The notes below the pieces were generated by a model, which did not search any database, was not told where the DNA came from, and saw only the letters and a list, made by a program, of their open reading frames with translations. Source: Chlorobiaceae bacterium (GTDB taxonomy: Bacteria > Bacteroidota > Chlorobiia > Chlorobiales > Chlorobiaceae). From it: DNA of 64,000 nucleotides. Of this stretch, positions 27,119-55,815 are shown in pieces. A program made the position numbers and the translations under genes. Every line of letters begins with the position of its first letter. Position 1 is the first letter of the stretch. The stretch spans positions 62,001 through 126,000 of the forward strand of contig JAAXWO010000004.1 in NCBI GenBank assembly GCA_013334965.1. The letters run 5' to 3'.

Positions 27119-27829
27119 CTATGCTGTCACCCGATCTTCCTTCTGAGCAACCACCTCCATGCACACCCTGTACCTTTCGCTGATACCGTAACGTCTTGGC
27201 TTGAAACCGTATTCTGACAGCAGGGAATAAAGCCTTGTCCGACTGAAATTATGATAGTGCTCCAGTTCACCCCAGTAGGGATTGCTGTTCTGCCTGTTCA
27301 TGGTCTCCCAGAGGATATTTTCGGAGTTAGGCATTGAAATCAGAAGAACTCCACCGCTCCTGAGCAATTTGCTGGCGGCGAGCAATGACTCTGTTGGATA
27401 AGGGATATGCTCCAATACGTCCGCCATACTGATCACCGAACACTCCTCACGAAGCTCAAGTTCAGTGATGTTTTTCTGATGAGCCTCAACTCCGAGCGAG
27501 TTCAACATCCTGACGTTATCAGGCCGCAAATCTGTCCCGACGGGAGTGAATCCATATTCCTGGGCAGTAAACAGCAAAGACCCGTTACCGAATCCGACAT
27601 CGAGCCAAAGCCCTTCAGAGGTGTAAGGCAAAACCTTCTCAACCATTCTTGAGGAGATCAGCCTGTTTTTTTCAATATCTGCGCCTACCTTCTGGTTATC
27701 ATGCGTTTTACTGAAAATAATGCCGCAGGCCTCATCTGTGTAATAACCCTCTGTGAAAATATGATTGCACTCCGAGCATTTATTCCACTGAATCGTCGGC
27801 TGCAGCTGACTGTTATAAAGACGATGCAT
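27119..27829 (-). CDS. Class I SAM-dependent methyltransferase, 5' end interrupted by a stop codon
   Basis: The open part codes 236 residues with a Rossmann SAM site (LWLDVGFGNGSLLFTA), an acidic DLRPDN strand end and the motif ADVLEHIPYP, i.e. a Methyltransf_23-type enzyme. It opens with MHRLYNSQLQPTIQW and then a lone CSECNHIF, half of a zinc ribbon. Upstream codons continue in frame to an ATG at 27910 and supply the missing half (YDGCPLC), but a TAA at 27869-27871 lies between. The shown start (27827-27829) is therefore the first ATG after the break and has no clear ribosome-binding site. A CAA to TAA change would explain it. The likely ancestral role is methylation of a sugar or glycan, given its glycosyltransferase neighbours (inference). 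The protein may be inactive or made by re-initiation. Confidence 0.75.
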   Translation of the reverse strand: MHRLYNSQLQPTIQWNKCSECNHIFTEGYYTDEACGIIFSKTHDNQKVGADIEKNRLISSRMVEKVLPYTSEGLWLDVGFGNGSLLFTAQEYGFTPVGTDLRPDNVRMLNSLGVEAHQKNITELELREECSVISMADVLEHIPYPTESLLAASKLLRSGGVLLISMPNSENILWETMNRQNSNPYWGELEHYHNFSRTRLYSLLSEYGFKPRRYGISERYRVCMEVVAQKEDRVTA

Positions 27830-27990: not shown

Positions 27991-30225
27991 CTAAGGATGA
28001 ACATCAATGCATTCCGGCGGCAATCCGGACTGGCTTCTGGCATACATGGCTTCAAATGCCGACTCGATATGCCTTGCGAACGACTCTGCATTAAAAAGAG
28101 GGGTCGTCAACCTGTTCTTTTCGAGTTTGCGCCTGATGATATCCAGTTTGGCAACATCCGTCGCCAACTCAACGGCTTTTGCTTCGAACTCCTCCTGGCT
28201 GCAGGTGATGAGCTCAGGCAACTCCACTGCCCTCAGCAAACTGGCCGCCACCCTGCCCGCGAATGATTTTCCCATAAGGGTAAGCACAGGCAACCCCGCC
28301 CAGAGCGCGTCACTCGACGTTGTGTGAGCGTTATAGGGTAAGGTGTCGATGAACAGGTCGGCAAAACGATGCCGGGCCAGATGTTCATGCAATGGCATAC
28401 GTTTCGCGAAAACCAGGCGGGAAGCGTCCACTCCCCTCGCTTCAGCCTCTTTTCGAAGGTTCTTCCCGGCTGTCGGATTTTCCTCAAACAGCCACAACAC
28501 GCTGCCGTCAACGGCCTGAAGAATTCTCATCCAGCCGTCAAACGTCGCTGGCAGAATCTTGTAATTATTGTTGAAACAGCAAAATACAAAACCTGACTCT
28601 GGGAGGCCGAGCTCTTTCTTCGTAAAGACACGCCCTGAAATAGTCCGCTTTGAGTCATTCACCTGGTAGCTATAGGGAAGATAAACCACCTTCTCGATGA
28701 AGTCCGACTGACTCTCCCTCGGTATCACCGTTTCATCCGCAATAATGTAATCCATGTATGCGGCCCCCATGGTTCCAGGATACCCAAGATAGCTGACCTG
28801 AACCGGAGCACATCTTTCAGCGAAGATGCCTGGCCTTGAATCCTGGGTAAACCCTTTCAGGTCAACGGCGATGTCGATACCCAGCTCCCTTGATCGCACT
28901 GCGACTTCTCGATCGCTCAAATTTCTGACATCAATGAATCTGTCGAATGCGGAAGCGACCCTTCTGCTCATCTGATCCTGCGTATCGGGCCCGAAAGAAA
29001 ACCCGTAGAACTCAAACTTTTCACGGTCGTGCGACTCGAACAGCTCTGCCATCAGATAAGCCGTGGCATGATTGTAAAAATCTGCCGAATAATACCCGAT
29101 GCGGATCTTTCCACCCTCCGCACACCCCTTTACCTCACAGGGAGTTCCCTTCGGCGGATATTTAGCATCAACATAAACGCCGGCAGCCTTTTTGTGAAGC
29201 TCTGGCATATCCGAGACCCCAAGCGCCATAAATGGTGTAGCCGCTTTCCTGAATGCGGCGATAGCAGCCTCCTGCTTCCCCAGATTTTCGCTGAATCCTC
29301 TCCAGTCGCACATCTTCATCCTTAAATGCAGTATCGTCCCGGACAAAAATTCGTAATCGGGACAGCTCGCGTATGCCGCTTCATAAGAGGCCAGCGCAGC
29401 CTCAAACTGCTTGAGCGCCTGTAACGCATTACCCCGGTTAAAATTGGCGTCGGCATAATCGGCATTGATGGCTATCGCTTTATCGCAACTTGCGACCGCC
29501 TCTTCATACCGTTTAAGGGAGCTCAGCGCATTACCCCGGTTGGACCAGGCTGTGGCATAATCGGGCTTGAGGGCCAACGCCTTGTCATAACAGGCCAGGG
29601 CGGATTCAAGCTGTTTGAGCTCCTGCAAAGCGTTCCCCCGGTTGGACCACGCTTCAGCGATATCAGGATTGATGGCCATTGCCTGATCATAACTGCCCAG
29701 CGCAGCCTCAAACTGCCTGGCCGCAAACAATGCGTTGCCTCGATTGGAATAGGCCTCGGCAAAAACTGGATTGAGGGCTATCGCTTTGTCATAGCTCTCA
29801 ATAGCTGCATCAAGCTGTTTGAGCTCCTGCAACACGTTCCCGCGGTTAGACCACGCCAGGGCAAAGCCAGGACAGAGAGCGATTGCCCGGTCGTAACTCG
29901 CCAACGCCGCCTCATACAGGTTGAGATCCTTCAGTGAATTGCCACGGTTGGACCAGGCGATAAACAATTCAGGATTGATTGCGATTGCCCGGTCGAAGAG
30001 TTCGATCGCCAACTGGTGTTTTTGCACCTGGGATGCGATAACGCCAAGCAGGTGCAGGGCATCGAAGCTTCCTGGATTGATTCGCAGTATCTCCCGATAC
30101 AAGGCGTCAGCCTTTGCAAGCTCCCCCTTTTTGTGGAAATCCAAAGCTTCCGACAAAAGCCTTTTAGCCCTGTCAACCGAAGGCTCAATGACAACGTTTC
30201 CCTTGGACTCGCGCTCTGTAGGCAT
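27991..30225 (-). CDS. TPR--GT41 (OGT/SPINDLY-like) glycosyltransferase, copy A
   Basis: This 744-residue protein starts with about eight 34-residue TPR units (residues ~20-300, consensus AWSNRGNALxELKQLEAALxSYDKAIALxP). A GT41 catalytic region follows (~365-735): KIRIGYYSADFYNHATAYLM, VDLKGFTQDSRPGIFAERCA, YLGYPGTMGAAYMDYIIAD, FCCFNNNYKI, and YNAHTTSSDALWAGLPVLT with SFAGRVAASLL. GT41 enzymes put GlcNAc, fucose or other sugars on Ser/Thr of proteins; the TPR superhelix binds the target (family knowledge). No signal peptide is present, so it acts in the cytoplasm. It is paralogous to the protein at 32070-34385, with purH between them. The ATG at 30225 has no close ribosome-binding site. Confidence 0.9.
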   Translation of the reverse strand: MPTERESKGNVVIEPSVDRAKRLLSEALDFHKKGELAKADALYREILRINPGSFDALHLLGVIASQVQKHQLAIELFDRAIAINPELFIAWSNRGNSLKDLNLYEAALASYDRAIALCPGFALAWSNRGNVLQELKQLDAAIESYDKAIALNPVFAEAYSNRGNALFAARQFEAALGSYDQAMAINPDIAEAWSNRGNALQELKQLESALACYDKALALKPDYATAWSNRGNALSSLKRYEEAVASCDKAIAINADYADANFNRGNALQALKQFEAALASYEAAYASCPDYEFLSGTILHLRMKMCDWRGFSENLGKQEAAIAAFRKAATPFMALGVSDMPELHKKAAGVYVDAKYPPKGTPCEVKGCAEGGKIRIGYYSADFYNHATAYLMAELFESHDREKFEFYGFSFGPDTQDQMSRRVASAFDRFIDVRNLSDREVAVRSRELGIDIAVDLKGFTQDSRPGIFAERCAPVQVSYLGYPGTMGAAYMDYIIADETVIPRESQSDFIEKVVYLPYSYQVNDSKRTISGRVFTKKELGLPESGFVFCCFNNNYKILPATFDGWMRILQAVDGSVLWLFEENPTAGKNLRKEAEARGVDASRLVFAKRMPLHEHLARHRFADLFIDTLPYNAHTTSSDALWAGLPVLTLMGKSFAGRVAASLLRAVELPELITCSQEEFEAKAVELATDVAKLDIIRRKLEKNRLTTPLFNAESFARHIESAFEAMYARSQSGLPPECIDVHP

Positions 30226-32069: not shown

Positions 32070-34385
32070 TTACGAAGGCCTGATATAAATATGATCCGGA
32101 GCAAGATTCAGGCGATGACGTTCGTACATCTCCGTGTAGGCGGCTTCGATATGCCTTGTGAAGCGTCCAATATCGAACAGAGGGGTGGAAAGCCGGTTTT
32201 TCTCCAGTTTTCGACGAATCCCTGCAAGCTTATCCTGATCGGTCGCAAGCTCTATCGCCAAAGCTTCATACCCTTCCTGCGAAAGGGTGATGAGTTCAGG
32301 TAATTCGATGGCGTTCAGCAAACTTGCCGCGACTCTTCCCGCGAACGACTCTCCCATACAGGTCAGCACGGGCAAACCCGCCCACAAGGCATCACTTGCC
32401 GTCGTATGGGCGTTGTAAGGAAGGGTATCAAGAAAAAGATCGGCAAGCCGGTGTCTCGCAAGGTGCTCCGGAAGCGCCATCCTTTGGGCAAAAACAAGCC
32501 TGCCCGGATCAACTCCCCGTCGAACAGCCTCTCTATGGAGATTGGCTGAAGCTTGCGGGCTGTCTTCAAAAAGCCACAGCACACTCCCCTCGATGCTTTT
32601 CAAAATCCTCATCCAGCAATCGAAAGTCTCCGGCGTTATCTTGTAGTTGTTGTTGAAACAGCAGAACACAAATCCTGTTTGAGGAAGCCCCATATCTTCC
32701 CTGCTGAAAATCTTGTCGGCTATCCTGCGTTTTGCGTCGTTCACCTGATAGGTGTCCGGCAGATAAGCTATTTTTTCCGTGTAGTACGGCTGAAGCCGCT
32801 CGGGTATAAGTGTATGATCAGCAATGAGATAATCGATATATTCGGCAACCATGGTCCCGGGATAACCGAGATAGTTGACCTGTACGGGAGCTGCGCGAAA
32901 TGCGAATATGTCTGTACGGGCATCCTTTGTAAAACCTTTCAGATCGACCGCGATATCGATCTCCAGCTCCCTTGACAATGACGCAACATCCCTGTCCGAT
33001 ATTGCCCTTACGTCAATGAACCTGTCGAAAGCCAGTAAAAGCCTTTTTCTCATGTCGTCATTCTGGGGATCCGGCCCAAAAGAGAAGGCTATAATCTCGA
33101 ACCTTGATCGATCATGCATCTCAAACAACTCAACCATCAGTTGGGCGGTGGCATGATTATGAAAATCCGCAGAGTAGTAGCCAATACGGATCTTGCCGCG
33201 CCTCTCCCGTTGTATGTTTTCGTAACCCTGTGGAGGCTCAGCATGCCTGTTCCCGACATAATTCGAAGCTGCCTGTTGTATCATTACGGGCGAATCTGTG
33301 AGAGCCAGAACGGGAAAAGGGTTACAGGCCCGTTCCTCCTGCATGATATTGATCGCCAGTTGATCCGAAAGCTCCCCGAAAGACGACCAATCGCAGATCA
33401 CCATTTTTATATGGAAATATGCCACCAGCCAGAATTCACCCTCCGGATTTATCGATAACGCCTGGCCATAGCTCGCCAATGCGGCCTCGAACCGTCTGAG
33501 CTCCTTTAACGCTGCTCCACGATTGGAATAGGCAGATGCATAATGGGGATTTATCCCTATCGCCCTGTTATAATTGATCAGTGCATCTTCAAACTGCCCG
33601 ATGTCAAGAAAAACATTCCCGCGATTTAAATATGCTTCGGCATAATCGGGCCTGATCGTTATCGCCCTGTCATAGCTTGCCAAAGCCATGGCCGAATGCC
33701 TGAGCTCCTTCAACACATTCCCCCTGTTGTACCAGGCTTCAGCATATTCATGCCTGATTTCCAGGGCCTTGTCATAACTCGCCAAGGCTGCTTCAAACCT
33801 TTTCAGCTCCTGCAACGCAAGTCCTCGATTTGACCATGCTTCCGCATAATCGGGCTTGATCGTTGTGGCCTTGTCATAACAGGATATCGCCTCTTCAGGA
33901 CGCGTCAGCTCCTGAAGCGTAAATCCAAGATTATAATAGGCCTCGGCATACTCCTGGTTGATCGCTATCGCCTTGCCATAACTCGCCAACGCGTCATCAA
34001 ACCTTTTCAGGCCATGCAACGCAAGTCCTCGATTTGACCATGCTTCCGCATGGTCCGGCTTGACGCCTATTGCCTTATCGTAGCTGGATATGGCCTCTTC
34101 CAGCCGGACAAGCACCTGCAAGGCGACCCCTCTTCGGAAATGTATGACAGCATTATACGGGCTGATGGCAATAACCCGATCAAACCATTCAACAGCACGG
34201 AGAAGATTCTGCTCATATAACGCGATCACACCGAGCAAAGTGAGCGCATCAACGTGGTCCGGCAGGATTTCGAGGATTTCCAGACAGTGCCGTTGAGCCT
34301 GCGCAAGCTGTCCTTGCTGGCAAACCAAGTGCGCCTGCGTCAACAGCTCTTCTATCCGGGACTGTTCGTGAATTGACGTCATCAT
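32070..34385 (-). CDS. TPR--GT41 (OGT/SPINDLY-like) glycosyltransferase, copy B
   Basis: The 771 residues comprise about nine TPR units (~15-330) and a GT41 catalytic part (~390-765): KIRIGYYSADFHNHATAQLM, VDLKGFTKDARTDIFAFRAA, YLGYPGTMVAEYIDYLIAD, FCCFNNNYKITPETFDCW, YNAHTTASDALWAGLPVLT. It is collinear and clearly homologous with copy A, but the TPR part differs more than the catalytic part, suggesting different protein targets. Its ATG (34383-34385) overlaps the TGA of the giant upstream gene (ATGA), so the two are translationally coupled and probably work in one pathway. It is cytoplasmic. Confidence 0.9.
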   Translation of the reverse strand: MMTSIHEQSRIEELLTQAHLVCQQGQLAQAQRHCLEILEILPDHVDALTLLGVIALYEQNLLRAVEWFDRVIAISPYNAVIHFRRGVALQVLVRLEEAISSYDKAIGVKPDHAEAWSNRGLALHGLKRFDDALASYGKAIAINQEYAEAYYNLGFTLQELTRPEEAISCYDKATTIKPDYAEAWSNRGLALQELKRFEAALASYDKALEIRHEYAEAWYNRGNVLKELRHSAMALASYDRAITIRPDYAEAYLNRGNVFLDIGQFEDALINYNRAIGINPHYASAYSNRGAALKELRRFEAALASYGQALSINPEGEFWLVAYFHIKMVICDWSSFGELSDQLAINIMQEERACNPFPVLALTDSPVMIQQAASNYVGNRHAEPPQGYENIQRERRGKIRIGYYSADFHNHATAQLMVELFEMHDRSRFEIIAFSFGPDPQNDDMRKRLLLAFDRFIDVRAISDRDVASLSRELEIDIAVDLKGFTKDARTDIFAFRAAPVQVNYLGYPGTMVAEYIDYLIADHTLIPERLQPYYTEKIAYLPDTYQVNDAKRRIADKIFSREDMGLPQTGFVFCCFNNNYKITPETFDCWMRILKSIEGSVLWLFEDSPQASANLHREAVRRGVDPGRLVFAQRMALPEHLARHRLADLFLDTLPYNAHTTASDALWAGLPVLTCMGESFAGRVAASLLNAIELPELITLSQEGYEALAIELATDQDKLAGIRRKLEKNRLSTPLFDIGRFTRHIEAAYTEMYERHRLNLAPDHIYIRPS

Positions 34386-37300
34386 CGCATCCCCTGTTTC
34401 TGCAAGAGGGAGATCAGATCAGCCCTGACCCGTTCAAATACGCTCGTCCAGTCGCCGATCGAGTCCTGCCGATACAGACTGACGCTTTCGTACCAGGGGC
34501 TGTCCGTCCTGTCGAGAAGCCAGCGCCAGTCAGGGCTGCAGGGAATCATCACCCAGGTCGGCCTGCCCAGCGCCGCACCCAGATGGGCGATGCCCGTATC
34601 GACGCTGATGACAACATCCATCAGTTCGCAAAGGGCCGCCGTGTCGGTAAAGTCTTTCAGCTCATCGCCGAAGTGACGGATGTCCGACCGGGACTGAAGC
34701 TTTGCCAAATCAACGCTCCTCACCTCTTTCTGCAGGCTCACGTACTGAAACCCCGAGGGAAGCGCATTGAGCAGTGAAGACAGAAGAACGCTGCGATTAC
34801 CGTCATTTTTATGCGTGGTGTCGCCACTCCAGACCAGCCCGATCCTTGGCGTTTTCTTCGTGCCTAAACGGTGGGACCAATCTCTCACCCTGCCCCTGTC
34901 GACCGACAGATATTTTGAAGCGGAGGGAATGGTTTCAAGGGTCGTCCTGAATGCCAGCGGTAAACTCATCAAGGGGCAATGGCAGTCAAAGTCGGGAAGT
35001 GTCTCCCCTTTTACGACAAACTCCGCCACTCCGTCAAGCTGCCTGAGCAAACCGATCAGCGGGCGCTGAACCTCCAGGAGCACCCTGGCTCCGAGAGCAG
35101 CGACAGGTTTCACATAACGGCAGAACTGGATCGTATCCCCAAACCCCTGTTCTGCATGCAACAGAATGGTTTTACCCTTTATGGAGTCACTGCCAAGCCA
35201 GAGGTTCCGGTTAAAATTGCGTATGGGTAAACGAAAATCGTTTGTTTTCCATCGCCACTCGTAGAGTTCCCATCCCTTGAGATAATCTCCGCTTAAAAGC
35301 AGGACGATCGATTTGCTTAAACATGCGAGGGGAAAATCGGGTTTAAGCGCGATCGCCCGATCATAATCGGCTCTCGCCTCATCAAGCCTGTTGAGCCTGT
35401 GCAGCGCAAGCCCCCTGTTGGCCCAGGCTTCAGCCAAACCGGGATTGATCGCTATCGCATCGTTATAACTGGCCAGCGCTGTTTCATACTGATGAAGCTC
35501 AAAAAGCGCGTTGCCCCGGTTTGAATACGCAACGCCATAGTCAGGTCTGATGGCGATGGCCCTGTCGTAACTGGTAACCGCTTCCTCATGATTGTGGAGT
35601 TCCTTCAATGCAAGCCCCCTGTTGGCCCAGGCTTCGGCAAAACCGGGATTGATCCCTGTCGCGCAATCATAACTGGCCACAGCCGCGTCATACCGATGCA
35701 GTTCAAAAAGCGCATTGCCCCGATTGTAGTATGCCTCGCTGTAATCAGGCTTGATCGCTATTGCGCGGTCATGACTGGCCACCGCTGCTTCATACTGATT
35801 GAGATTCTTCAGCGAAAGGCCGCGGTTGCTCCATGCTTCGCTATGATCAGGCCGTAGCCTCGTCGCCTCATCATAGCTCGCTATTGCGGCCTCATTCTGG
35901 TTGAGCCCATACAGCGCATTACCGCGATTGAAATAGAACTCTGCGTTACAGGGATAAAGGATGATCGCCTGATTGATCAGCTCCACAGCCCGGAGGTAAT
36001 CCCGGTCTCCCAGGGCGATGACGCCAAGAAGTTGGAGGGAATCAAAATGATCCGGCAGGATTTCAAGAATCTCGGCATACAGCACTTTTGCCTCGGCATG
36101 TCGTCCGCCCTGATGGTATGACAACGCTCTCCGGAAAAGCTCATCTACCGTGCCAGTGACCTGATCAGGAAGCGGTTTGGCGCCGGACTGGGGTAGAAAC
36201 AGGGAGACCAGATCCCTTCGGACATCTTCAAACACGCTCGTCCAATCGCCAACCGACTCCTGGCGATAGACTCTGACGCTCTCATACCAGGGCGAGTCCG
36301 TCCTGTCAAGAAGCCATCGCCAGTCTGGACTGTAAGAGATCATCACCCAGGTCGGCCTGCCCATCGCCCCGCCCAGATGAGCGACGCTCGTATCGACGCT
36401 GACCACAACATCCATCAGTTCGCAAAGGGCGGCAGTGTCGGTAAAGTCCTTCAACTCTTCGCCGTAATGGCTGATATTCGACCGGGAGAGAATCGTTTCC
36501 ATGTCAACCGCCCTGACCTCTTTCTGCAGGCTCACGTACTCAAACTCCGGAGGAAGCGTATTGAGCAGTGAGGAGAGCAGAACACTACGATTACGGTCAT
36601 TTTTATGTCGTGTTTCACCACTCCAGACCAAACCGATTCTCGGTCTTGTTTTCTGGCCCAACCGCTGGGACCACTCTGTCACCTTGAAACTCTCGACCGA
36701 CAGATATTTCGACGCGGAAGGAATGGTCTCAAGGGTCGTCCTGAACGCCAGCGGCAAACTCATCAAGGGGCAATGGCAGTCAAACTCGGGATGCTCGCCG
36801 CCTTTGACGACTAACTCCGCAACTCCCTCAAGTTGCCTGAGCAGGCCGACCAGGGAGGGCTGGACCTCCAGAACGACCCGCGCTCCAAGTTCCGCAGCCG
36901 ACTTCACGTAACGACAGAGCTGGATCGTGTCGCCGAGCCCCTGTTCACTATGCAACAGCACGCTCTTTCCGGCGATGGAGTCATCTCCAAGCCAGAGCTT
37001 CCGGGCAAAAATCCGTTCAGAATCAGGAAAATCCTCTTTTTTCCATCTCCACTCGTACAACTCCCATCCTCTTGAATAATTTCCGGCTAAAAGCAATGCC
37101 AGGGATTTATTCCAGTAAGCGTCCGCATAATCGGGCTTGAGCGCTATTGCCCGGTCATAATCCGCCAAGGACTCATCCAACCTCCTGAGCCCCTGAAGCG
37201 CTACTCCCCGGTTGGAATAAGCGACGGCATAATCTGGTTTGAGCGCGATCGCCTCGTCATAACTCGCCAGGGCATCATCCAGCCTGTCGAGCATCTGCAA

Positions 37301-39754
37301 TGCAATTCCGCGGTTCGAAAAGGCGACGGCATAATCAGGCTTGAGCGCGATCGCCTCGTCATAACTCGCCACTGCCTCTTCAAACCGGTTGAGCTCTTTC
37401 AGTGAAAGCCCTTTGTTGGACCAGGCTTCGTATGCATAAGGGTTGATGGATATCGCATGATCATGATCCGCTATCGCACTCTCGAACTTTTTGAGATCAT
37501 GCAGCGCTACGCCCCGGTTTGAATAGGCATCCGTATAAGCAGGATTGATGGCGATCGCCCGATTGTAGCTCTCAACTGCCGCTTCAAGCTGGTTGAGCTC
37601 CTGCAACGCAAGCCCCCTGTTGTAATGAAATGCGGCACAATCAGGGTTGAATCTGATAGCCTGGTCCTGACTGGCTACCGCTGCATCGAACTGTTTGAGA
37701 TCCTTGAGTGCGTTGCCCCTGTTTGACCAGGCATCGGCATAATCGGCCCTGATGGCTATCGCCTTGTCGTAAGCCTCGACCGCCGCTTCAAACTGCCCGA
37801 GCCCATGGAACGCAATGGCCTGGTTGTAATGAAAAGCCGCATTATGGGGGTATATCTCAATGGCCCGACTTATCAACTCGATTGCAAGCCGGTGGTTTTG
37901 CCTTTGGCTGGCAATAACCCCCAGCAGGTGAAGGGAATCAAAATGATCCGGCTGAATTCGCAGTATCTGCTCATAGCGCAGTCGGGCCTGATCGAGTTGT
38001 CCCATCTGGTGCAGGGCCAGCGCTTGCCGAATGAGATCCCGGGGCTGGTCAAGCGCCTCTTCCGGAGACAGGGTCCGATTCATGAGACGACCAAAAGCAG
38101 CCAGATCGCCGCTGATCTTTTCCAGCACGCCCGCCCAATCCCCGATAGCATCCTGACGATACAATTTCATTGCTGGATACCAGGGCGTGTCCGCCCTGTC
38201 AAGCAACCAGCGCCAGTCGGGAACAAACGGAATAAGCACCCAGGTCGCCTTGCCCATGGCGGCGGCCAGATGAGCGACGCTCGTATCGACACTGATCACC
38301 AGATCGACCAGTTCACAAAGGGCTGCCGTATCGGAAAAGTCGTTCAGTTCATTCCCGTAATCGGAGATCTCCGGATGTGATGCGACGGTTGCCCTGTCAA
38401 CATCACGCACCTCCTTCTGGAGGCTCACATACTGAAACCCGGAGGGCAACTGGCTGATCAGTGTCGAAAGCTGAAGACTCCGGTTGGCGTCCTGATTGTG
38501 GGTTATGTCGCCACTCCATGCCAGACCGATTCTCGGCATCGTCCTCGGGCCCAGCCTGCGGCTCCAGGCAGCCACTTTTTCCGGTGTGGCAGACAGGTAT
38601 TGTCGTTCTGAAGGAATGGTTTCAAGGATCGTTCTGAATGCCAGGGGCAAACTCATCAAGGGGCAATGGAAATCAAACGCAGGTAGCGGACGACCTTTTT
38701 CAACAATCACGGCAACACCCTCCAGTTGCCCGAGCAGAGCCAGGAGAGGTTGATGAATTTCCAGTATCACCCGGGCTCCGAAGGCCGCCACAAGCTTCGC
38801 ATAACGGCAGAACTGGATCGTGTCGCCGTAACCCTGCTCTCCGTGCAAAAGTATGGTCCTGCCCTGTATGGATTCGTTGCCGAGCCATAGCCGCTGGCTG
38901 AAGTTGCGTATGGGCAGGCGAAAGTCACCCGTTTTCCATCTCCACTCATACAACTTCCAGCCATTGCAGAAATCCCCTTTCAACAGCAACGCCATAGCTT
39001 TGTTCAGATAGGCCAGGGCGAAATCCGGGTTGATCGCAATTGCCTGGTCATGGCTGCCGATGGCCTCATCGATCATTCCGAGGCCCTGCAGCGCGACTCC
39101 CCGGTTGAACCAGACGTCCGCATAATCCGGATTGATCGATATGGCCCGATCATAACTCGCCAACGCTGCTTCCTGCAGGTTGAGATCCTTCAGGGCATTG
39201 CCACGATCAGTCCATGCCGCATAAAAATCCGGTTTGCACTCTATTGCCCGCCCATAACTCACTACCGCCTCTTCAAACCGCTTAAGTTTATGCAAAACCA
39301 GCCCCCGGTTATACCACGCCACGGCATAATCAGACTGAGCCTGCAATGCCTGGTCATAACTCGCCAACGCAGCCTCCAGCTGATCGAGCTCCTTCAGCGC
39401 GTTACCCCTGTTGGACATCGCTTCGGCGTAATCGGGCTTGATCGATATCGCCTCATCATAGCTGCTGACAGCTTCCGCATACAGTTTAAGCCCCTGCAGT
39501 GCGAGACCCCTGTTGAAATAAAAAAGCGCCTTGCGAGGGGAAATCGCAATCGCCTGATTGATCAGCTCCAGCGCATGACGGTATTGTTTCGTCTGGTTGG
39601 CTATGACTCCCAGCAAATGAATTGAATCGAAATGTTCCGGCTCCATTCCAAGTATCTGCTCATAGAGCACTTGAGCTTGAGCGAGTTGGCCCTTCTGGTG
39701 CAGGTCCACTGCTTGCCGTAGCAGATCTTTGAGCCGGTCAGTCACAGGCCTCAA
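34382..39754 (-). CDS. Giant protein with three tandem TPR + GT9-like glycosyltransferase modules
   Basis: This 1790-residue protein consists of three copies of one module, at residues ~1-560, ~560-1188 and ~1188-1790. Each has 7-10 TPR units, then GWxLYEWRWK, LLHxEQGxGDTIQFCRY, FDCHCPLMSLPLAFRTTLETIP, PRIGLxWSGDTTHK and VDTSVAHLxxAMGRPTWVMI, the last resembling the donor site of GT9 (heptosyltransferase-like) enzymes. All three donor-site motifs are intact (VDTSVAHL, VDTSVAHL, VDTGIAHL). DNA of the modules is very similar in places, e.g. about 34920-34985 against 36720-36785, pointing to internal duplication. The start codon is non-ATG (TTG 39754, or GTG 39745). The gene lies 36 bp after a methyltransferase gene and overlaps copy B. 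A processive or multi-acceptor role is possible; the substrate is unknown. Confidence 0.88.
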   Translation of the reverse strand: MRPVTDRLKDLLRQAVDLHQKGQLAQAQVLYEQILGMEPEHFDSIHLLGVIANQTKQYRHALELINQAIAISPRKALFYFNRGLALQGLKLYAEAVSSYDEAISIKPDYAEAMSNRGNALKELDQLEAALASYDQALQAQSDYAVAWYNRGLVLHKLKRFEEAVVSYGRAIECKPDFYAAWTDRGNALKDLNLQEAALASYDRAISINPDYADVWFNRGVALQGLGMIDEAIGSHDQAIAINPDFALAYLNKAMALLLKGDFCNGWKLYEWRWKTGDFRLPIRNFSQRLWLGNESIQGRTILLHGEQGYGDTIQFCRYAKLVAAFGARVILEIHQPLLALLGQLEGVAVIVEKGRPLPAFDFHCPLMSLPLAFRTILETIPSERQYLSATPEKVAAWSRRLGPRTMPRIGLAWSGDITHNQDANRSLQLSTLISQLPSGFQYVSLQKEVRDVDRATVASHPEISDYGNELNDFSDTAALCELVDLVISVDTSVAHLAAAMGKATWVLIPFVPDWRWLLDRADTPWYPAMKLYRQDAIGDWAGVLEKISGDLAAFGRLMNRTLSPEEALDQPRDLIRQALALHQMGQLDQARLRYEQILRIQPDHFDSLHLLGVIASQRQNHRLAIELISRAIEIYPHNAAFHYNQAIAFHGLGQFEAAVEAYDKAIAIRADYADAWSNRGNALKDLKQFDAAVASQDQAIRFNPDCAAFHYNRGLALQELNQLEAAVESYNRAIAINPAYTDAYSNRGVALHDLKKFESAIADHDHAISINPYAYEAWSNKGLSLKELNRFEEAVASYDEAIALKPDYAVAFSNRGIALQMLDRLDDALASYDEAIALKPDYAVAYSNRGVALQGLRRLDESLADYDRAIALKPDYADAYWNKSLALLLAGNYSRGWELYEWRWKKEDFPDSERIFARKLWLGDDSIAGKSVLLHSEQGLGDTIQLCRYVKSAAELGARVVLEVQPSLVGLLRQLEGVAELVVKGGEHPEFDCHCPLMSLPLAFRTTLETIPSASKYLSVESFKVTEWSQRLGQKTRPRIGLVWSGETRHKNDRNRSVLLSSLLNTLPPEFEYVSLQKEVRAVDMETILSRSNISHYGEELKDFTDTAALCELMDVVVSVDTSVAHLGGAMGRPTWVMISYSPDWRWLLDRTDSPWYESVRVYRQESVGDWTSVFEDVRRDLVSLFLPQSGAKPLPDQVTGTVDELFRRALSYHQGGRHAEAKVLYAEILEILPDHFDSLQLLGVIALGDRDYLRAVELINQAIILYPCNAEFYFNRGNALYGLNQNEAAIASYDEATRLRPDHSEAWSNRGLSLKNLNQYEAAVASHDRAIAIKPDYSEAYYNRGNALFELHRYDAAVASYDCATGINPGFAEAWANRGLALKELHNHEEAVTSYDRAIAIRPDYGVAYSNRGNALFELHQYETALASYNDAIAINPGLAEAWANRGLALHRLNRLDEARADYDRAIALKPDFPLACLSKSIVLLLSGDYLKGWELYEWRWKTNDFRLPIRNFNRNLWLGSDSIKGKTILLHAEQGFGDTIQFCRYVKPVAALGARVLLEVQRPLIGLLRQLDGVAEFVVKGETLPDFDCHCPLMSLPLAFRTTLETIPSASKYLSVDRGRVRDWSHRLGTKKTPRIGLVWSGDTTHKNDGNRSVLLSSLLNALPSGFQYVSLQKEVRSVDLAKLQSRSDIRHFGDELKDFTDTAALCELMDVVISVDTGIAHLGAALGRPTWVMIPCSPDWRWLLDRTDSPWYESVSLYRQDSIGDWTSVFERVRADLISLLQKQGMR

Positions 39755-39790: not shown

Positions 39791-40570
39791 TTAAGAGGGA
39801 TTTACGGGATAAAACGCCGGCCTGGCCCAATCAGGAAGTTCCCTGAAAAACGCATGCATTCCCTGCGAAAAACTATGAAACTCAAATCCGTAACAAGCTC
39901 CCAGCATACGCAGGCTTTTGGTTGTATACAGTGAAATATGACCGTTTCGGGGAGAAGCGTACCACCAGGTCAATCGACCGTTTTCCAGAATCTGTCCGTC
40001 CGACACAACTGTGGAAAAGAGAAAAACGCTCTCCTTGCCAAGAAAACCTGCAACCTCTTCCATCATTCTGCGCGGCGCAGCGGCATGCTCAAAAACCTCA
40101 AATGCAGTAACCAGATCAAAATCCGAATGTTCCGGAACTGAACCCTCGTCATAATATGGATCATAACTGACAGCGTTGAATCCCGCATTTCTCAGCAATG
40201 AGACCATCTGACCCTGGCCGCCTCCATAATCAAGTATTTTCAGATGCTCCCGATATCCCTGAAACACCGCTGTAATGATATCGGCATGCAATTTCGGACG
40301 GGCTTCGACAAAATCCGGATCAAAATTCACATAGTCACCATTATAAATCAGGTTTCCGAATTGCTGTTTTGTCCATGAACAGAGTTCGGGAGAAAAAACA
40401 AAACCACACTCGGCACACCGGTAATAATAGACCGGCTTCAAGGATAAGGGAACAAACTTTCCGCGAACCTCCTGGCAGTTCTTCATGAAATCACAACAAT
40501 CATAAGGAGTGGCGATGTTGCCGCACACGAGACATACGCTACGCGCCATGAAAACCCCCAATGTTCTCAT
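39791..40570 (-). CDS. Zinc-ribbon class I SAM methyltransferase
   Basis: This 259-residue protein has an N-terminal zinc knuckle (CLVCG near residue 13 and CAECGFVF near 52). A Methyltransf_23 domain follows with LDYGGGQGQMVSLL, FDLVTAFEVFEHAAAP and FLFSTVV. Related enzymes with this layout methylate nucleotide-linked or glycan sugars. ATG at 40570 has AGAGG 7 nt upstream, so the MRTLGVF start is preferred over the ATG at 40549. It stands between the FkbM gene (76 bp upstream) and the giant TPR-GT gene (36 bp downstream), presumably in one transcript. It has the same domain plan as the interrupted gene at 27.1-27.9 kb. Confidence 0.82.
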   Translation of the reverse strand: MRTLGVFMARSVCLVCGNIATPYDCCDFMKNCQEVRGKFVPLSLKPVYYYRCAECGFVFSPELCSWTKQQFGNLIYNGDYVNFDPDFVEARPKLHADIITAVFQGYREHLKILDYGGGQGQMVSLLRNAGFNAVSYDPYYDEGSVPEHSDFDLVTAFEVFEHAAAPRRMMEEVAGFLGKESVFLFSTVVSDGQILENGRLTWWYASPRNGHISLYTTKSLRMLGACYGFEFHSFSQGMHAFFRELPDWARPAFYPVNPS

Positions 40571-40646: not shown

Positions 40647-41471
40647 TCAACGCTTGACAAAAGGGTGTTTTGTCGAGTCGCTGATCGGCTGCTCGCCCAA
40701 CTGAATCCGCTGGTTGTCGGAGTGCACACAGATCATGTTGACCGCCACCTGATTCGGATACAGATTTTCCTCACACCCGAAATAATTACCCTTGTTGAAA
40801 TACGGCACGCTATGCCACCAGCAGCGATAACCGTATGACCATAACAACTCAATGAGTTCCTGCGATTTCTCCAGGCGGTCGTTTTCAACATACAGCACCG
40901 GTTTTTTGGACTTGAGCACACCGGCCATACCGCGCAAGGCATCGCACTCCATGCCTTCCACATCAATTTTGACGAAATCGGGCGCCGGAATGATGCGCGC
41001 CATGTCGTCGCCTGTCCGACACTCAACCCTCGCGCCTCCGCCTGGGGAATTGACAAGGCTGATGCCCCCGAAATTCCCGGAACATCCGTACGAGATTTTA
41101 GGCAGCTCCAGTATCTCCGTCTTCTCTCCGAGCGCATAAGGGAAGGCCCGGGCCCAGCCAAATCCATTAAGGGCAAGATTTGCCGCCAGATTATTGAATA
41201 CCTCGGGTTGGGGCTCGAAGGCTATAAAATTTCCTTCGCTTCCCACCATTTTTGCAAGAGGAACCGCCAGCACTCCAATATTGGCGCCAACCTCCCATAC
41301 GGTGTCTCCCTTCCGTACCAGTTGACTGAACACCACAGCCTCAAGCTCGCTGCATTCACCATACAGTTCCAGCGCACGTCCGCAATAAAAGCAATGAAGG
41401 TTGTAGACAAACACACCGTGTTTTGCGTTCACCATCCTTTGATGCCCGGATAGCTGAGTAATCGTTCTCAT
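40647..41471 (-). CDS. FkbM-family methyltransferase
   Basis: This 274-residue protein has the FkbM layout: VWEVGANIGVLAVPLAKMVG (SAM site), FIAFEPQPEVFNNLAANLALNG, and DFVKIDVEGMECDALRGM. The domain typically O-methylates sugars or glycolipid and glycan residues. The last ~60 residues (YRCWWHSVPYFNKGNYFG) are aromatic-rich and common in family members near TPR-glycosyltransferases (family impression, not tested). It is the first gene of the minus-strand island operon and has a candidate promoter 45-73 bp upstream. The AT-rich leader shows no ribosome-binding site. Confidence 0.85.
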   Translation of the reverse strand: MRTITQLSGHQRMVNAKHGVFVYNLHCFYCGRALELYGECSELEAVVFSQLVRKGDTVWEVGANIGVLAVPLAKMVGSEGNFIAFEPQPEVFNNLAANLALNGFGWARAFPYALGEKTEILELPKISYGCSGNFGGISLVNSPGGGARVECRTGDDMARIIPAPDFVKIDVEGMECDALRGMAGVLKSKKPVLYVENDRLEKSQELIELLWSYGYRCWWHSVPYFNKGNYFGCEENLYPNQVAVNMICVHSDNQRIQLGEQPISDSTKHPFVKR

Positions 41472-48779: not shown

Positions 48780-51700
48780 TTACCAGCTGAAGGAGGCTCC
48801 GATAGCACCTGCAGAAGGAGTACCGGTACCTACGCCGAGGCTTGCACCGATCGTGATGTTATCCGTCACGATGGCTTTACCGCCGATGGCGAATGCCTGC
48901 TCACCACCATAAGTACCAGCGCCTGCACCAATCGAGAACTGGTGTCCGGGCATTGGAGCCGGGATGGTAGCCATTGCCGCAACCTGAGCGATACCGCTGT
49001 AAGCCTTCTTCGATACCCTGTTCATCTGCTGCACGTTGACGCCATCGTAGTTGTCTACGCCATCCGCAACACCGGTCAGACGAGCAGGACCACCGTTATT
49101 TTCAAGATGTACTCCTGAATTGTTGACCGTTATGTTGGCGCTGCTGACATCTCCGATACGAACCTGGGGATTCGTCGAGTTGGCTGCAGTGGTTGCCTCG
49201 ATAAGCTCCCTTGGCGTTCCGGATGTTCCGCCTACATCAAGAGTTGCTGAACCGTCCGTCAGGGTCCAGGTTGAGGTATTGCTGCCTCCGGAGACCTGTG
49301 TCGTGCTGCCTGCCACCACAAGGCCATGTCCACCTGCATTGGTCAACTGGGCGTTTGTCGCACTGACTGACAACGTACCATTCGAAGAGACCGGATCAAC
49401 AACATTGCCTCTCAGAACCACATCGTTGTTTGCCGTCAGCGTTCCGGTGACCGTCGTGCCGTTTCCATTAACAACCACGCTGTTCGTTCCGTTCGTGATC
49501 GTCGTGGTCACACCGGTAATGGTGTTGGTCGTACCAGTGATGTTGTTGGCTACGCCATTAATGTTGTTGGTCGTACCATTAATGTTGTTCGTCGTACCGG
49601 TGATCGTGTTTGTCGTACCGCTGATCGACGTTCCGCTTGCGTTAACCGTCAGACCATTGTTGTTCACGGTTACCGATGCGACAGGGTTACCGCCTGCATT
49701 GCTCACCGTGACGTTGGCTACGCCGGTGCTCGTCGGTGCAAGTAGGTTGGTCGTCAGACCGGCGCTGTTACCCAGCCTGTCTACATAGACCGCTTCAGAA
49801 CCGTCAGTAATGCTTGCAACCACGTGTCCGTTGTAACCACCCAGCTTGTACGCCGCGTTCTGGTCGATGCCGACGCTGTACCCGTAAACGCTCTCATTCA
49901 GGGTAGACTGCGTTGAGCTGACCGTTGAGCTGTAGTTACCGCTCGTAGCCTTGATGCCTGTGCCGCTCACCACAAGGTTGTTTGCACCGGCAGCGTCAGA
50001 AGCCTGTAACGTTGTAGTACCAGTCAGGGTGTTCTCCGATCCGTTCACACCGATCTCGTTCACATCACCCCTGGCATACATGTTGTTGTTAACGGTCAGT
50101 CGGGTATTAACAGTCGTGTCAGTTCCGTTAATATTAAACTCATTGACACCAGAGTTGTCGGCATTGACCGAGAATGAACCACCCTGCACCAAAGTAGAAC
50201 CGTTAATCGTCGTTCCGGTAGCAGTGTTCACGACCACCCCATTGAAGCCGGCGACAATTGAGTTCCTTGTCGTCGTGTAACCGCCGATGAGGTTATCATC
50301 GCCGGATGCCGTAAGGTTGCCGTCCACATTAAGCGTACCAGCTACAGTTGTCGGCGTGTTAACTGTTCCGAGGGTAAGGGAAGTAACCCCGGCGTTGTTA
50401 ACTGCGGTAATCAGGCTTACTCCCGATCCGATCGCACCAGTTCCAACCGTCAGCGTTGCCGAATTCTGACCCAGGGCAAACGTCGTGCTGCTGCCGTTCA
50501 TAAGGGTCGTTGTAAGAATGTCTGACGTGACGCCATTCAACTGGCCGTTGGCATTCTGCACCCCAAGCGAAGCTGCACCTGTTGCGACATTCACGAGCGC
50601 CGTACCTGTAACGTTCGCAGCCGTACCGTTGGTATCCACCGACAGCGAACTGTTCAGGGTCGTCGGGCCTGCAACCGTAAGAGAGTTGTTCAGCGTCGTT
50701 GCGCCGTCTACCGTCAACGTTCCACCCAGCGTCGTATTACCGTCTACGTTCAAGGTACCGGTAACATTGGCATTGCCGTTGATTGTGGCATAACCATCGC
50801 TGACCACCAGGCTTACACCGTTTCCGACAAGGGTCGTGCTTGAACCAGGGGCTGTGCTGCCGATAACGTTCGTGTAACCAGTTGCAGTCAGATTACCCGT
50901 AACAGCCAGGGTATTGTTGATGACCGTCGGACCATTCAGCGTCGTGGGGCCAGCTACCGTCAGCGAACCGCCGATCGATGTATCTCCTGCAACAGCCAAT
51001 GAACCGCCAATCGATGTGTCTCCTGCGACATCCAACGTGCTGTTCAGTGTCGTTGCACCTTCAACTGTCAGCGTACTGTTCAGCGTCGTCGCACCTGCTA
51101 CCGTCAGCGTATTGCCGAGGGTGGTCGCGCCTGCCACGTCCAGTGTGCTGCCCAGCGTCGTCGCTCCGTTCACGTTCAGGGTGCCAGTGACATCCTGATT
51201 GCCGTTGACAGTTACAGTACCGTTGCTTACGACCAGGCTGACACCGCTGCCAACAATGGTCGTGCTCGTATCAACATTGGTATTGCCAATGACGTTGGTA
51301 TCACCAGTCGCCGTGAAGTTGCCGGTAACGTCCAGCGTATTGTCTACCAGCGTCGCGCCGTTCAGCGTCGTCTCGCCCATCACCGTCAGGGTGTCGGACA
51401 GCGTCGTTGCGCCGACAACATCCAGCGTATTGCCAAGCGTCGTCGCGCCAGTCACACCCAACGTGTTGTTGATCTGGGTCGCACCGTTCAGCGTCGTCGC
51501 GCCTGCTACCGTCAGCGTATTGCCGAGGGAGGTCGCACCAGCAACGTCCAGTGTGCTGCCCAGCGTCGTCGCCTCGTTCACGTTCAGGGTACCGGTAACC
51601 AATGCGTTGCCGTCAATCGTCGTACCTGTCGTGCTGGAAACTTCGATGCTGTTTGCTCCTGCTGCAATCGTGTTCAGGGTCGTGTTGACGCCACCTATGG

Positions 51701-54700
51701 TGTTCACATCACCAGTTGCCGTGAAGTTGCCGGTAACGTCCAGCGTATTGTCTACCAGCGTCGCGCCGTTCAGCGTCGTCTCGCCCATCACTGTCAGCGT
51801 GTCGGACAGCGTCGTTGCGCCGACAACATCCAGCGTATTGCCAAGCGTCGTCGCGCCAGTCACACCCAAGGTGTTGTTGATCTGGGTCGCACCGTTCAGC
51901 GTTGTCGCGCCTGCTACCGTCAGCGTATTGCCGAGGGAGGTCGCACCTGCAACGTCCAGTGTGCTGCCCAGCGTCGTCGCTTCGTTCACGTTCAGGGTAC
52001 CGGTAACCAATGCGTTGCCGTCAATCGTCGTACCTGTCGTGCTGGAAACTTCGATGCTGTTTGCTCCTGCTGCAATCGTGTTCAGGGTCGTGTTGACGCC
52101 ACCTATGGTGTTCACATCACCAGTTGCCGTGAAGTTACCGGTAACGTCCAGCGTGTTGTCTACCAGCGTCGCGCCGTTCAGCGTCGTCTCACCCATCACC
52201 GTCAGCGTGTCGGACAGCGTCGTCGCGCCGACAACATCCAGTGTGTCACCAAGCGTCGTAGCACCACTTACACCCAGGATATTGTTGATCTGCGTTGCGC
52301 CGTTCAACGTCGTTGCGCCAGTTACAGTCAGCGTATTGCCGAGGGAGGTTGCGCCTGCCACGTCAAGTGTACTGCCGAGTGTCGTCGCACCAGTCACATC
52401 AAGGGTACCGGTGACAGCAGAATTGCCGTTTACGGTTGCGACGCCATCACCAACCACAAGGCTGACTGCATTTCCGAGAAGAGTAGTCGTGGTCCCGGCA
52501 GTTGTATTTCCAATGACGTTATCATTACCCGATGCCGTCAGGTTGCCGGTAACATCCAGCGTATTGTCCACCAATGTTGCACCGTTCAGCGTCGTCGCCC
52601 CATCAACCGTCAGCGAACTGCCGAGAGATGTCGCACCAGTCACACCAAGGGTGTTGTTGATCTGCGTTGCGCCGTCCAATGTCGTTGCGCCAGTAACAGT
52701 CAGCGTGCTACCGAGTGAGGTTGCGCCTGCCACATCAAGGGTGCTGGCGAGTGTAGTCGCTTCATTTACATCCAGCGTACCGGTGACCAGTGCGTTGCCG
52801 TCAATCGTCGTACCCGTCGTGCTGGATACTTCAACACTGTTCAGCCCGGCTGTAATCGTATTGGTGGTCGTATTGCTGTTTCCAATAGTGTTTACAGTAC
52901 CATTGGCCGTCAGGTTGCCGGTAACGTCCAGCGTTCCTGCGACTGTTGTTGCCGTTGTAGAGACACCAAGCGTGATTGCTGTTGTACCTGCGTTGTTGGT
53001 CGCATTGATCAATGTAACGTCTGATCCAGGGGCGCCTGTACCGACCTGCAAAGCCGCAACCCCATCTGCCAGGCTCAGGTTCGTGGAGTTGGTGCCGCCG
53101 CTCAGGGTAGTAATACCTGTTGTTCCATCAATGGAAAGACCGTGGCCATTCGAAAGCAGGTCAACAGAATTACTCGTTATGGACAGGGAACTTGAGTCAC
53201 CAAGCAGTGATGATGATATCGTAGCGCCTCCTGTGCCGAGGATGCTTCCGGAACCTGCATCGAGACCAACACCGGTGATGAGACCAGTAGAGGTAATCGC
53301 ACCACTATCGATTGTCCCTGTGCCCAGATCAAGGCTTGTGCCGCTGATCGCGCCGCCGCTGATGCCGCCGCTGCCTACGTCAAGGCTCGTTCCAGTGATT
53401 GTGCCACCGCTGATCGAACTGCTGGTAATCGTGCCTACGTCAATAAGATTCCCACCGTTCAAGTCGGCGTTGCCGCTCGAAAGAGCAAGACCTGCACTGG
53501 TCATCAAGCCGCTCGATGTGATCGCGCCACTGCTGATTGTGCCAACTCCGCTCAGGTTTCCACCCGTTAACGTAGCAACGCCATCAGTAATAGTTCCGCC
53601 ACTCACTATACCGGTAGTCTCGATCGTACCTGCACCTGCATCCAAACTGGTGCTCGTGATTGCACCACTGCTGATCGTGCCTGTCGTGCTCAAGTTACCA
53701 GCTGTCAATGTCGCCGTGCCATCCGTGAAGCTCGTACCCGTAACTGCGCCTGTCGATGTGATCGCGCCACTGTTGATTGTGCCTACGTCAATAAGATTGC
53801 CACCGTTCAAGTCGGCGTTGCCGCTCGAAAGAGCAAGACCTGCACTGGTCATCAAGCCACTTGATGTGATCGCGCCACTGCTGATTGTGCCAACTCCGCT
53901 CAGGTTTCCACCCGTTAACGTAGCAACGCCATCAGTAATAGTACCACCACTCACTATACCGGTAGTCTCGATCGTACCTGCACCTGCGTCCAAACTGGTG
54001 CTCGTGATTGCACCGCTGCTGATCGTGCCTGTCGTGCTCAGGTTACCAGCTGTCAATGTTGCCGTGCCATCCGTGAAGCTCGTACCCGTAACTGCGCCTG
54101 TCGATGTGATCGCGCCACTGTTGATCGTCCCTACGTCAATAAGATTGCCACCGTTCAAGTCGGCGTTGCCGCTCGAAAGAGCAAGACCTGCACTGGTCAT
54201 CAAGCCACTCGATGTGATCGCGCCACTGCTGATTGTGCCAACTCCGCTCAGGTTTCCACCCGTTAACGTAGCAACGCCATCAGTAATAGTACCACCACTC
54301 ACTATACCGGTAGTCTCGATCGTACCTGCACCTGCGTCCAAACTGGTGCTCGTGATTGCACCGCTGCTGATCGTGCCTGTCGTGCTCAGGTTACCAGCTG
54401 TCAATGTCGCAGTGCCATCGGTGAAGCTCGTACCCGTAACTGCGCCTGTCGATGTGATCGCGCCGCTGTTGATCGTGCCTGTCGTGCTCAGGTTACCAGC
54501 AGTCAATATCGCCGTGCCATCGGTAATCGTACCACCGCTGATCGTGCCCGTCGTGGTCAGGTCGTTGGCGCCCATTTGAACGTCGCCATTAATGTCAACC
54601 CCACCCCGAGCATTACCGATACTGACAAGACCAGTGCCGCTTCCGTTGCCGATGTTTGTCTGGTCTGCCGTGGTGGTATTGATGTTCGTTGTTCCCGTTA

Positions 54701-55508: not shown

Positions 55509-55815
55509 GTTTTGCTCCTTTATGGGGTATTGCAATTAGTTAGCGGATAATTACTTAACAGGTTTATCGAAATACTCAGGGTTACTGATTATCACGAGAG
55601 GAAAAGCTTTGTTCAACGACTTACGACAGTTTCTGAATCATCATCAATCCGAAAGGCAGAAATACCCGGCTTCACTCACTCAATACATCGCCAGAGTACT
55701 CTCATCTTGTCATTACATGAACATCACTTCACACAAATCCTGCATCATAGTATCAATCCGTACCAATCACGTCAGGAGCATATCGAAGGGTATACGCCTA
55801 ATATGCACACTGAGT

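Follow-up and report, generated by a model that had tools for sequence, protein, structure and literature searches.

Most glycosyltransferases of family GT9 with a known acceptor are lipopolysaccharide heptosyltransferases, which, as is the case for WaaC and WaaF, consist of one catalytic head, lack TPRs and act on a lipid. Enzymes of family GT41 (OGT, SPINDLY and the bacterial TPR-GT41 proteins) combine a TPR superhelix with a GT-B head and act on proteins. FlmG of Caulobacter crescentus (596 aa) is a flagellin O-glycosyltransferase, which acts in the cytosol on an exported protein with pseudaminic acid as the donor; its TPR part (residues 1-313) binds flagellin, and its glycosyltransferase part occupies residues 309-596 (PMC7591256). 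TibC, one of the BAHT enzymes (TibC/AAH), achieves multivalency by forming a dodecameric ring and is characterized by an iron-finger and an N-terminal beta-barrel (PMC4358343).

The gene considered here lies in a window of 64,000 nucleotides (the whole stretch of DNA that was analysed) from a Chlorobiaceae bacterium. The first-pass annotation had claimed that it encodes three TPR + GT9-like modules in one chain of 1790 residues, and this is borne out by the open reading frame, the motifs, the profile comparison and the structural models. The plan of FlmG, an N-terminal TPR part followed by a C-terminal glycosyltransferase of about 290 aa, is present here three times, while FlmG itself has a single module; the likeness is drawn from its published description. 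With WaaC and WaaF the heads share a profile match and the positions of the catalytic Asp residues of the GD and VDT types, but their N-terminal lobe is shorter and diverged. The GT41 proteins have the same TPR superhelix and GT-B head arrangement and form chains of up to four heads in related genomes, but their catalytic domain belongs to another family. As to the BAHT enzymes, the common traits are the GT9-related fold logic and a multivalent action that hyperglycosylates an autotransporter adhesin prior to its export, which is a feature of BAHT and is proposed here; the difference is that the three-headed protein would obtain its multivalency within one chain, with the TPRs as the docking part.

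Organization of the locus

The genes and parts of genes discussed below are the following.

27119-27829, minus strand: SAM-dependent methyltransferase, adjoining the second GT41 gene
27991-30225, minus strand: second TPR + GT41 gene, 744 aa
32070-34385, minus strand: TPR + GT41 (OGT/SPINDLY-like) gene, 771 aa
34382-39754, minus strand: three-headed TPR + GT9-like gene, 1790 aa, stop codon at 34382-34384
38984-39754, minus strand: module 1 TPR scaffold, aa 1-257, about 8 TPRs (Pfam TPR matches and 34-aa length steps)
38087-38983, minus strand: module 1 catalytic head, aa 258-556; Asp codons equivalent to D13 (38822-38824) and D261 (38285-38287), WaaC numbering
38066-38086, minus strand: linker between head 1 and module 2, aa 557-563, from alignment
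37091-38065, minus strand: module 2 TPR scaffold, aa 564-888, 10 TPRs by length
36194-37090, minus strand: module 2 catalytic head, aa 889-1187; Asp codons equivalent to D13 (36929-36931) and D261 (36392-36394), WaaC numbering
36170-36193, minus strand: linker between head 2 and module 3, aa 1188-1195, pLDDT under 50 (model residues 589-599)
35297-36169, minus strand: module 3 TPR scaffold, aa 1196-1486, 9 TPRs, 18 helices in the model
34400-35296, minus strand: module 3 catalytic head, aa 1487-1785; Asp codons equivalent to D13 (35135-35137) and D261 (34598-34600), WaaC numbering
39791-40570, minus strand: SAM-dependent methyltransferase (Methyltransf_23), just upstream of the three-headed gene
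40647-41471, minus strand: FkbM-family methyltransferase
48780-55535, minus strand: trimeric-autotransporter adhesin with YadA anchor, candidate acceptor, 2251 aa

Translation of the three-headed gene contains no internal stops over 1790 aa; it starts with TTG at 39754 or with the in-frame GTG at 39745, neither being certain. The modules span residues 1-563, 564-1195 and 1196-1790, and each contains the motifs WxLYEWRWK, EQGxGDTIQ, GLxWSG, SLQKEVR, VDT(S/G)xAHL and PDWRWLLDR. The distance from the module start to WxLYEWRWK varies among the three by steps of 34 residues, which gives TPR counts of 8, 10 and 9 for modules 1, 2 and 3, respectively.

The ATG of the adjoining GT41 gene overlaps the stop codon of the three-headed gene (ATGA), and the two are therefore probably co-translated. 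Judging by their sequences, both GT41 neighbours carry a TPR scaffold of the kind seen in the heads' own gene but belong to a different catalytic family. The genes scanned around the island include no recognizable polymerase, flippase or other polysaccharide gene, and true GT9 genes are present separately in the host genome. The island between purH and queE was found only in the host contig and in the related genome G229, with three heads in the former and two in the latter; in the other genomes of the genus where the queG-purH-queE stretch was readable, no TPR-glycosyltransferase gene occurs there. In total, G229 yielded 23 head matches, mostly in separate tandem single-module genes, beside fused two-headed ones; in one of its contigs (G229:C63:1-20000) ten head-bearing TPR-GT9-like genes stand in a row on one strand within 20 kb.

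Family, fold and divergence of the modules

The Pfam GT9 model (PF01075), which matched 37 of the 40 diverse heads surveyed, covers only about 32 residues of the three-headed protein, near the VDTS motif, and with so short a span the label "GT9-like" has to be justified by comparing profiles. The head profile, set against that of 18 true GT9 enzymes of the host's own class, gave an hhalign probability of 96.4 (E 1.4e-9, 201 columns), with the invariant GD of EQGxGDTIQ falling on the invariant GD of GT9; head residues 228-249 match residues 256-277 of WaaC (2gt1) without gaps, which places the Asp of VDT on WaaC D261. Head residues D54 and D233, kept in all three heads, occupy the positions of D13 and D261 of WaaC, whose mutants D13A and D261A lose activity 4688-fold and 2027-fold, respectively (PMC5713226). 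In the region of WaaC Lys192 the two profiles align poorly, and an invariant Arg (R168) lies nearby. Membership of the heads in GT41 was also considered and is ruled out by an hhalign probability of 0.3 against the GT41 profile. An NCBIfam search returned only generic TPR names and weak heptosyltransferase matches. Taken by their profiles, the heads form a diverged GT9-related family.

Across the 40 heads, 21 columns are invariant, and all 21 are kept in each of the three heads of the protein. No Cys is invariant or nearly so, meaning that the four-Cys iron finger of BAHT is absent.

Structure prediction, suggested as a check by the first-pass annotation, gave a confident fold for module 3 (AlphaFold, pLDDT 94.7, pTM 0.90, 53 aligned sequences), with an all-helical TPR part where BAHT has its N-terminal beta-barrel. 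In the joint model of modules 2 and 3 (1191 residues) both are well-folded units (pLDDT 89.6), while the overall pTM is 0.51 and the linker, flexible in the model, has 11 residues under pLDDT 50; the natural reading of this model is that the modules would be flexibly tethered, with no fixed mutual arrangement. The top Foldseek matches of the whole module were SPINDLY and OGT, both TPR protein glycosyltransferases, but this search of solved structures was driven by the TPRs, which dominate both the module and the matches, and says little on the glycosyltransferase part. In BFVD the module matched phage proteins named family 9 glycosyl transferase (TM by target 0.76-0.78), which may be regarded as supportive only.

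Alignment of the three modules at the DNA and protein levels, likewise suggested earlier, showed them to be diverged: protein identity is 52-61% between the modules and 65-75% among the catalytic heads alone. The high DNA identity quoted for 34920-34985 and 36720-36785 is real (94% over 66 nt); the first stretch belongs to the catalytic region of head 3 and the second to that of head 2. Values of dS between the modules range from 0.68 to 1.77, so synonymous sites have diverged; for heads 2 and 3 they are 0.68 in the catalytic part vs 1.77 in the TPRs. The latter pattern fits gene conversion, which would homogenize the heads while the TPRs diverge, and it argues for the same chemistry combined with different docking. 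The dN/dS ratio is about 0.2-0.3 in both the TPR and the catalytic parts for all module pairs, as well as in comparisons with the two heads of one relative. Purifying selection thus acts throughout and no head looks dead, which, together with the invariant residues, confirms the earlier view that all three catalytic regions are intact.

The likeness among the modules greatly exceeds what chance would give, and by these values they are an old tandem duplication. Repeats classically cause misassembly, and one module could in principle have been misassembled into repeats; however, duplication in assembly is ruled out by the divergence of the modules, including their synonymous sites and unequal TPR numbers, and G229 carries a two-headed counterpart at the corresponding position, so that we give this explanation practically no credence.

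Multi-headed relatives in other genomes

A search for one- and two-module relatives, also proposed in the first-pass annotation, found both, including two-headed ones in Chlorobiaceae. The scan of genomes yielded at least 569 confirmed stretches, and single-module relatives are widespread (hundreds of plasmid records, many of these matches possibly being to the TPR part only). The union of TPRs with a GT9-like head, taken at first to be unusual, is therefore a common one, and its multi-headed forms recur. Heads per ORF were counted on the fetched loci only. At least four were found in a Rhodospirillales MAG (L080) and in Limnohabitans sp. JirII-31 (L089), both ORFs running into contig ends; three in the host gene and in three genomes of the same phylum (G224, G014 and G009); and two in Chlorobium ferrooxidans, G229, G079, G165, Microcoleus and others. 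Highly similar heads may break short-read assemblies, and the true numbers of heads are probably underestimated.

Chains of GT41 are also multi-headed, with four heads in a 3510-residue ORF of G040 and at least three in G094. The four-unit ORF of G040 (G040:C79:8370-18899) lies immediately downstream of an operon for the type I secretion of an adhesin. Mixed chains exist as well: one of the order GT9-like, GT41, GT41 in the Chlorobiaceae MAG Umea1_bin-1492, where the end of another GT41 stands at the contig start, and one of the order GT41, GT9-like in proteobacterial MAGs. The former locus (G181:C87:1-6091), read as GT41 end, GT9-like, GT41, GT41, thus unites two unrelated transferase families in one chain.

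In a quick tree of the heads (short search, SH-aLRT support only), the four Limnohabitans heads group together (100), as do the four Rhodospirillales heads (98); host heads 2 and 3 are sisters (99), and all three host heads fall inside a same-genus group (94). Such grouping by lineage means that multiplication of heads arose several times independently, and the recurrent forms, with two to at least four heads, come from Chlorobiaceae and further lineages of its phylum, from Limnohabitans and from Rhodospirillales. In the searchable papers, from which subscription journals are mostly missing, no published account of multi-headed TPR glycosyltransferases was found; the architecture extends a known kind of enzymes, the TPR-containing protein glycosyltransferases.

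Candidate acceptors and proposed function

The nearest candidate acceptor, the YadA-type protein (48780-55535), consists of Ser and Thr by 30% and contains five 136-aa and three 116-aa repeats; a GATase gene adjoins it, and this arrangement is conserved in G229. Its link to the three-headed gene is loose, as the two are 9 kb apart and separated by unrelated housekeeping genes (QueE, endonuclease IV, FtsX). Since the host and G229 share one syntenic arrangement, their co-occurrence with the YadA anchor was counted once. Elsewhere, in a closed genome, an intact YadA-type gene has a stop-riddled remnant of a GT9-like head (G060:C1:330632-330955) at a distance of about 3 kb, and G237 has a degraded YadA trace; co-occurrence of this kind is suggestive, not strong. 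Members of the family are also linked to flagellin: in Limnohabitans (G301:C12) one at 178627 is flanked by two flagellin genes (175978 and 180204), and a Caulobacteraceae genome (G300:C98) has one about 3 kb from a flagellin gene.

One class of type I secretion operon, coding for a large Ser/Thr-rich protein, TolC, PPIase, an ABC protein with C39 and cNMP domains, and HlyD, occurs in ten genomes of the host's bacterial family; in G044 it runs into a contig end, which leaves nine scorable genomes. TPR-glycosyltransferase genes are directly attached to it in five of the nine: three GT9-like genes in a row in G229, one TPR-GT9-like gene inside the operon of the host (G000:C6), where it neighbours an ORF at least 4900 residues long, and GT41 genes with up to four heads in G040, G094 and G213; the operons of G237, G036, G010 and G272 have none. 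Under random placement, the rough probability of such attachment is 2e-7, or 1e-4 if three alike genomes are merged, the clusters having been counted by hand. In the host region (G000:C6:196000-229000) the long ORF, of at least 4900 aa, is Ser/Thr-rich, and near the contig end it is followed by a second TolC copy of equal similarity and another cadherin/RTX-type ORF. Protein acceptors are hinted at most strongly by the attachment of two unrelated glycosyltransferase families to one and the same class of adhesin operon.

We consider it moderately probable that the product of the gene is a three-headed glycosyltransferase that modifies proteins in the cytosol, each of its heads catalyzing essentially the same reaction, with a Ser/Thr-rich surface adhesin as the likely acceptor; the protein acceptor and its identity, the cytosolic action and the same sugar for each head are what we infer from sequence and gene context. 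The TPR superhelix of each module would dock the polypeptide, and the compact GT-B head, related to GT9, would use a nucleotide-activated donor for sugar transfer, with the putative catalytic base being the invariant Asp of EQGxGDTIQ. Tethering of three equivalent heads could allow one molecule to modify many Ser/Thr sites on a long repetitive chain before its export. A probable role of the GT41 partner is the addition or extension of sugars; that of the methyltransferases may be to modify the sugar. As for the earlier suggestion that adhesin repeats are modified, gene context does provide plausible acceptors, and the modification itself should be read as a prediction.

Three other explanations bear on these data. 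The gene could be simply a fused array, which arose by tandem duplication and loss of stops and whose meaning is limited to dosage and TPR diversification. The prevalence of tandem single-module genes in G229, ten of them head-bearing within 20 kb, beside fused two-headed ones, the two heads at the syntenic locus of G229 as compared with three in the host, and the disorder of the linker in the model agree with such an origin; however, fusion recurs in several phyla and in two unrelated glycosyltransferase families, and the low dN/dS on all heads points to purifying selection, which makes this explanation rather unlikely. The presence of three intact active sites in one chain would also suit heads working in sequence, to build a trisaccharide or to add three different sugars, as had been suggested initially. 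This we regard as very improbable, considering that the heads are 65-75% identical, have all family-invariant residues in common and belong to one same-genus clade, with heads 2 and 3 being sisters (99) whose dS is 0.68 in the catalytic part vs 1.77 in the TPRs. The multi-sugar bacterial glycosyltransferases known to us are built of dissimilar domains.

Finally, the acceptor could be a glycolipid or polysaccharide (LPS, capsule), with the TPRs assembling a biosynthetic complex and not binding the acceptor, as might be expected from the predominance of LPS heptosyltransferases among GT9 enzymes of known function and from the adjoining methyltransferases, which occur in polysaccharide clusters too. 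Yet the host has its separate true GT9 genes, the genes scanned around the island include no recognizable polysaccharide genes, the co-translated partner is a GT41 protein, a class whose characterized members modify proteins, and the relatives are linked to flagellin and adhesin genes; we therefore hold a non-protein acceptor to be improbable.

Returning to the protein glycosyltransferase reading, gene context points to the giant adhesins of type I secretion and to an adhesin of the YadA type as the acceptors. Tentatively, covalently multivalent protein glycosyltransferases may represent a distinct, repeatedly evolved class, formed in either of two unrelated glycosyltransferase families, in which heads of identical chemistry are arrayed on TPR scaffolds and their number, from one to at least four in a chain, tracks the length or the repeat number of the giant exported adhesin; it is a possible generalization, if not yet a likely one, and, if it is true, the enzyme would walk or straddle along its acceptor. 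For OGT, SPINDLY and FlmG it is an open question how a glycosyltransferase docked through its TPRs picks and covers many sites per protein. Three equivalent, separately mutable heads in one natural chain, together with relatives having one, two and at least four heads, make a series in which valency could be set against site occupancy.
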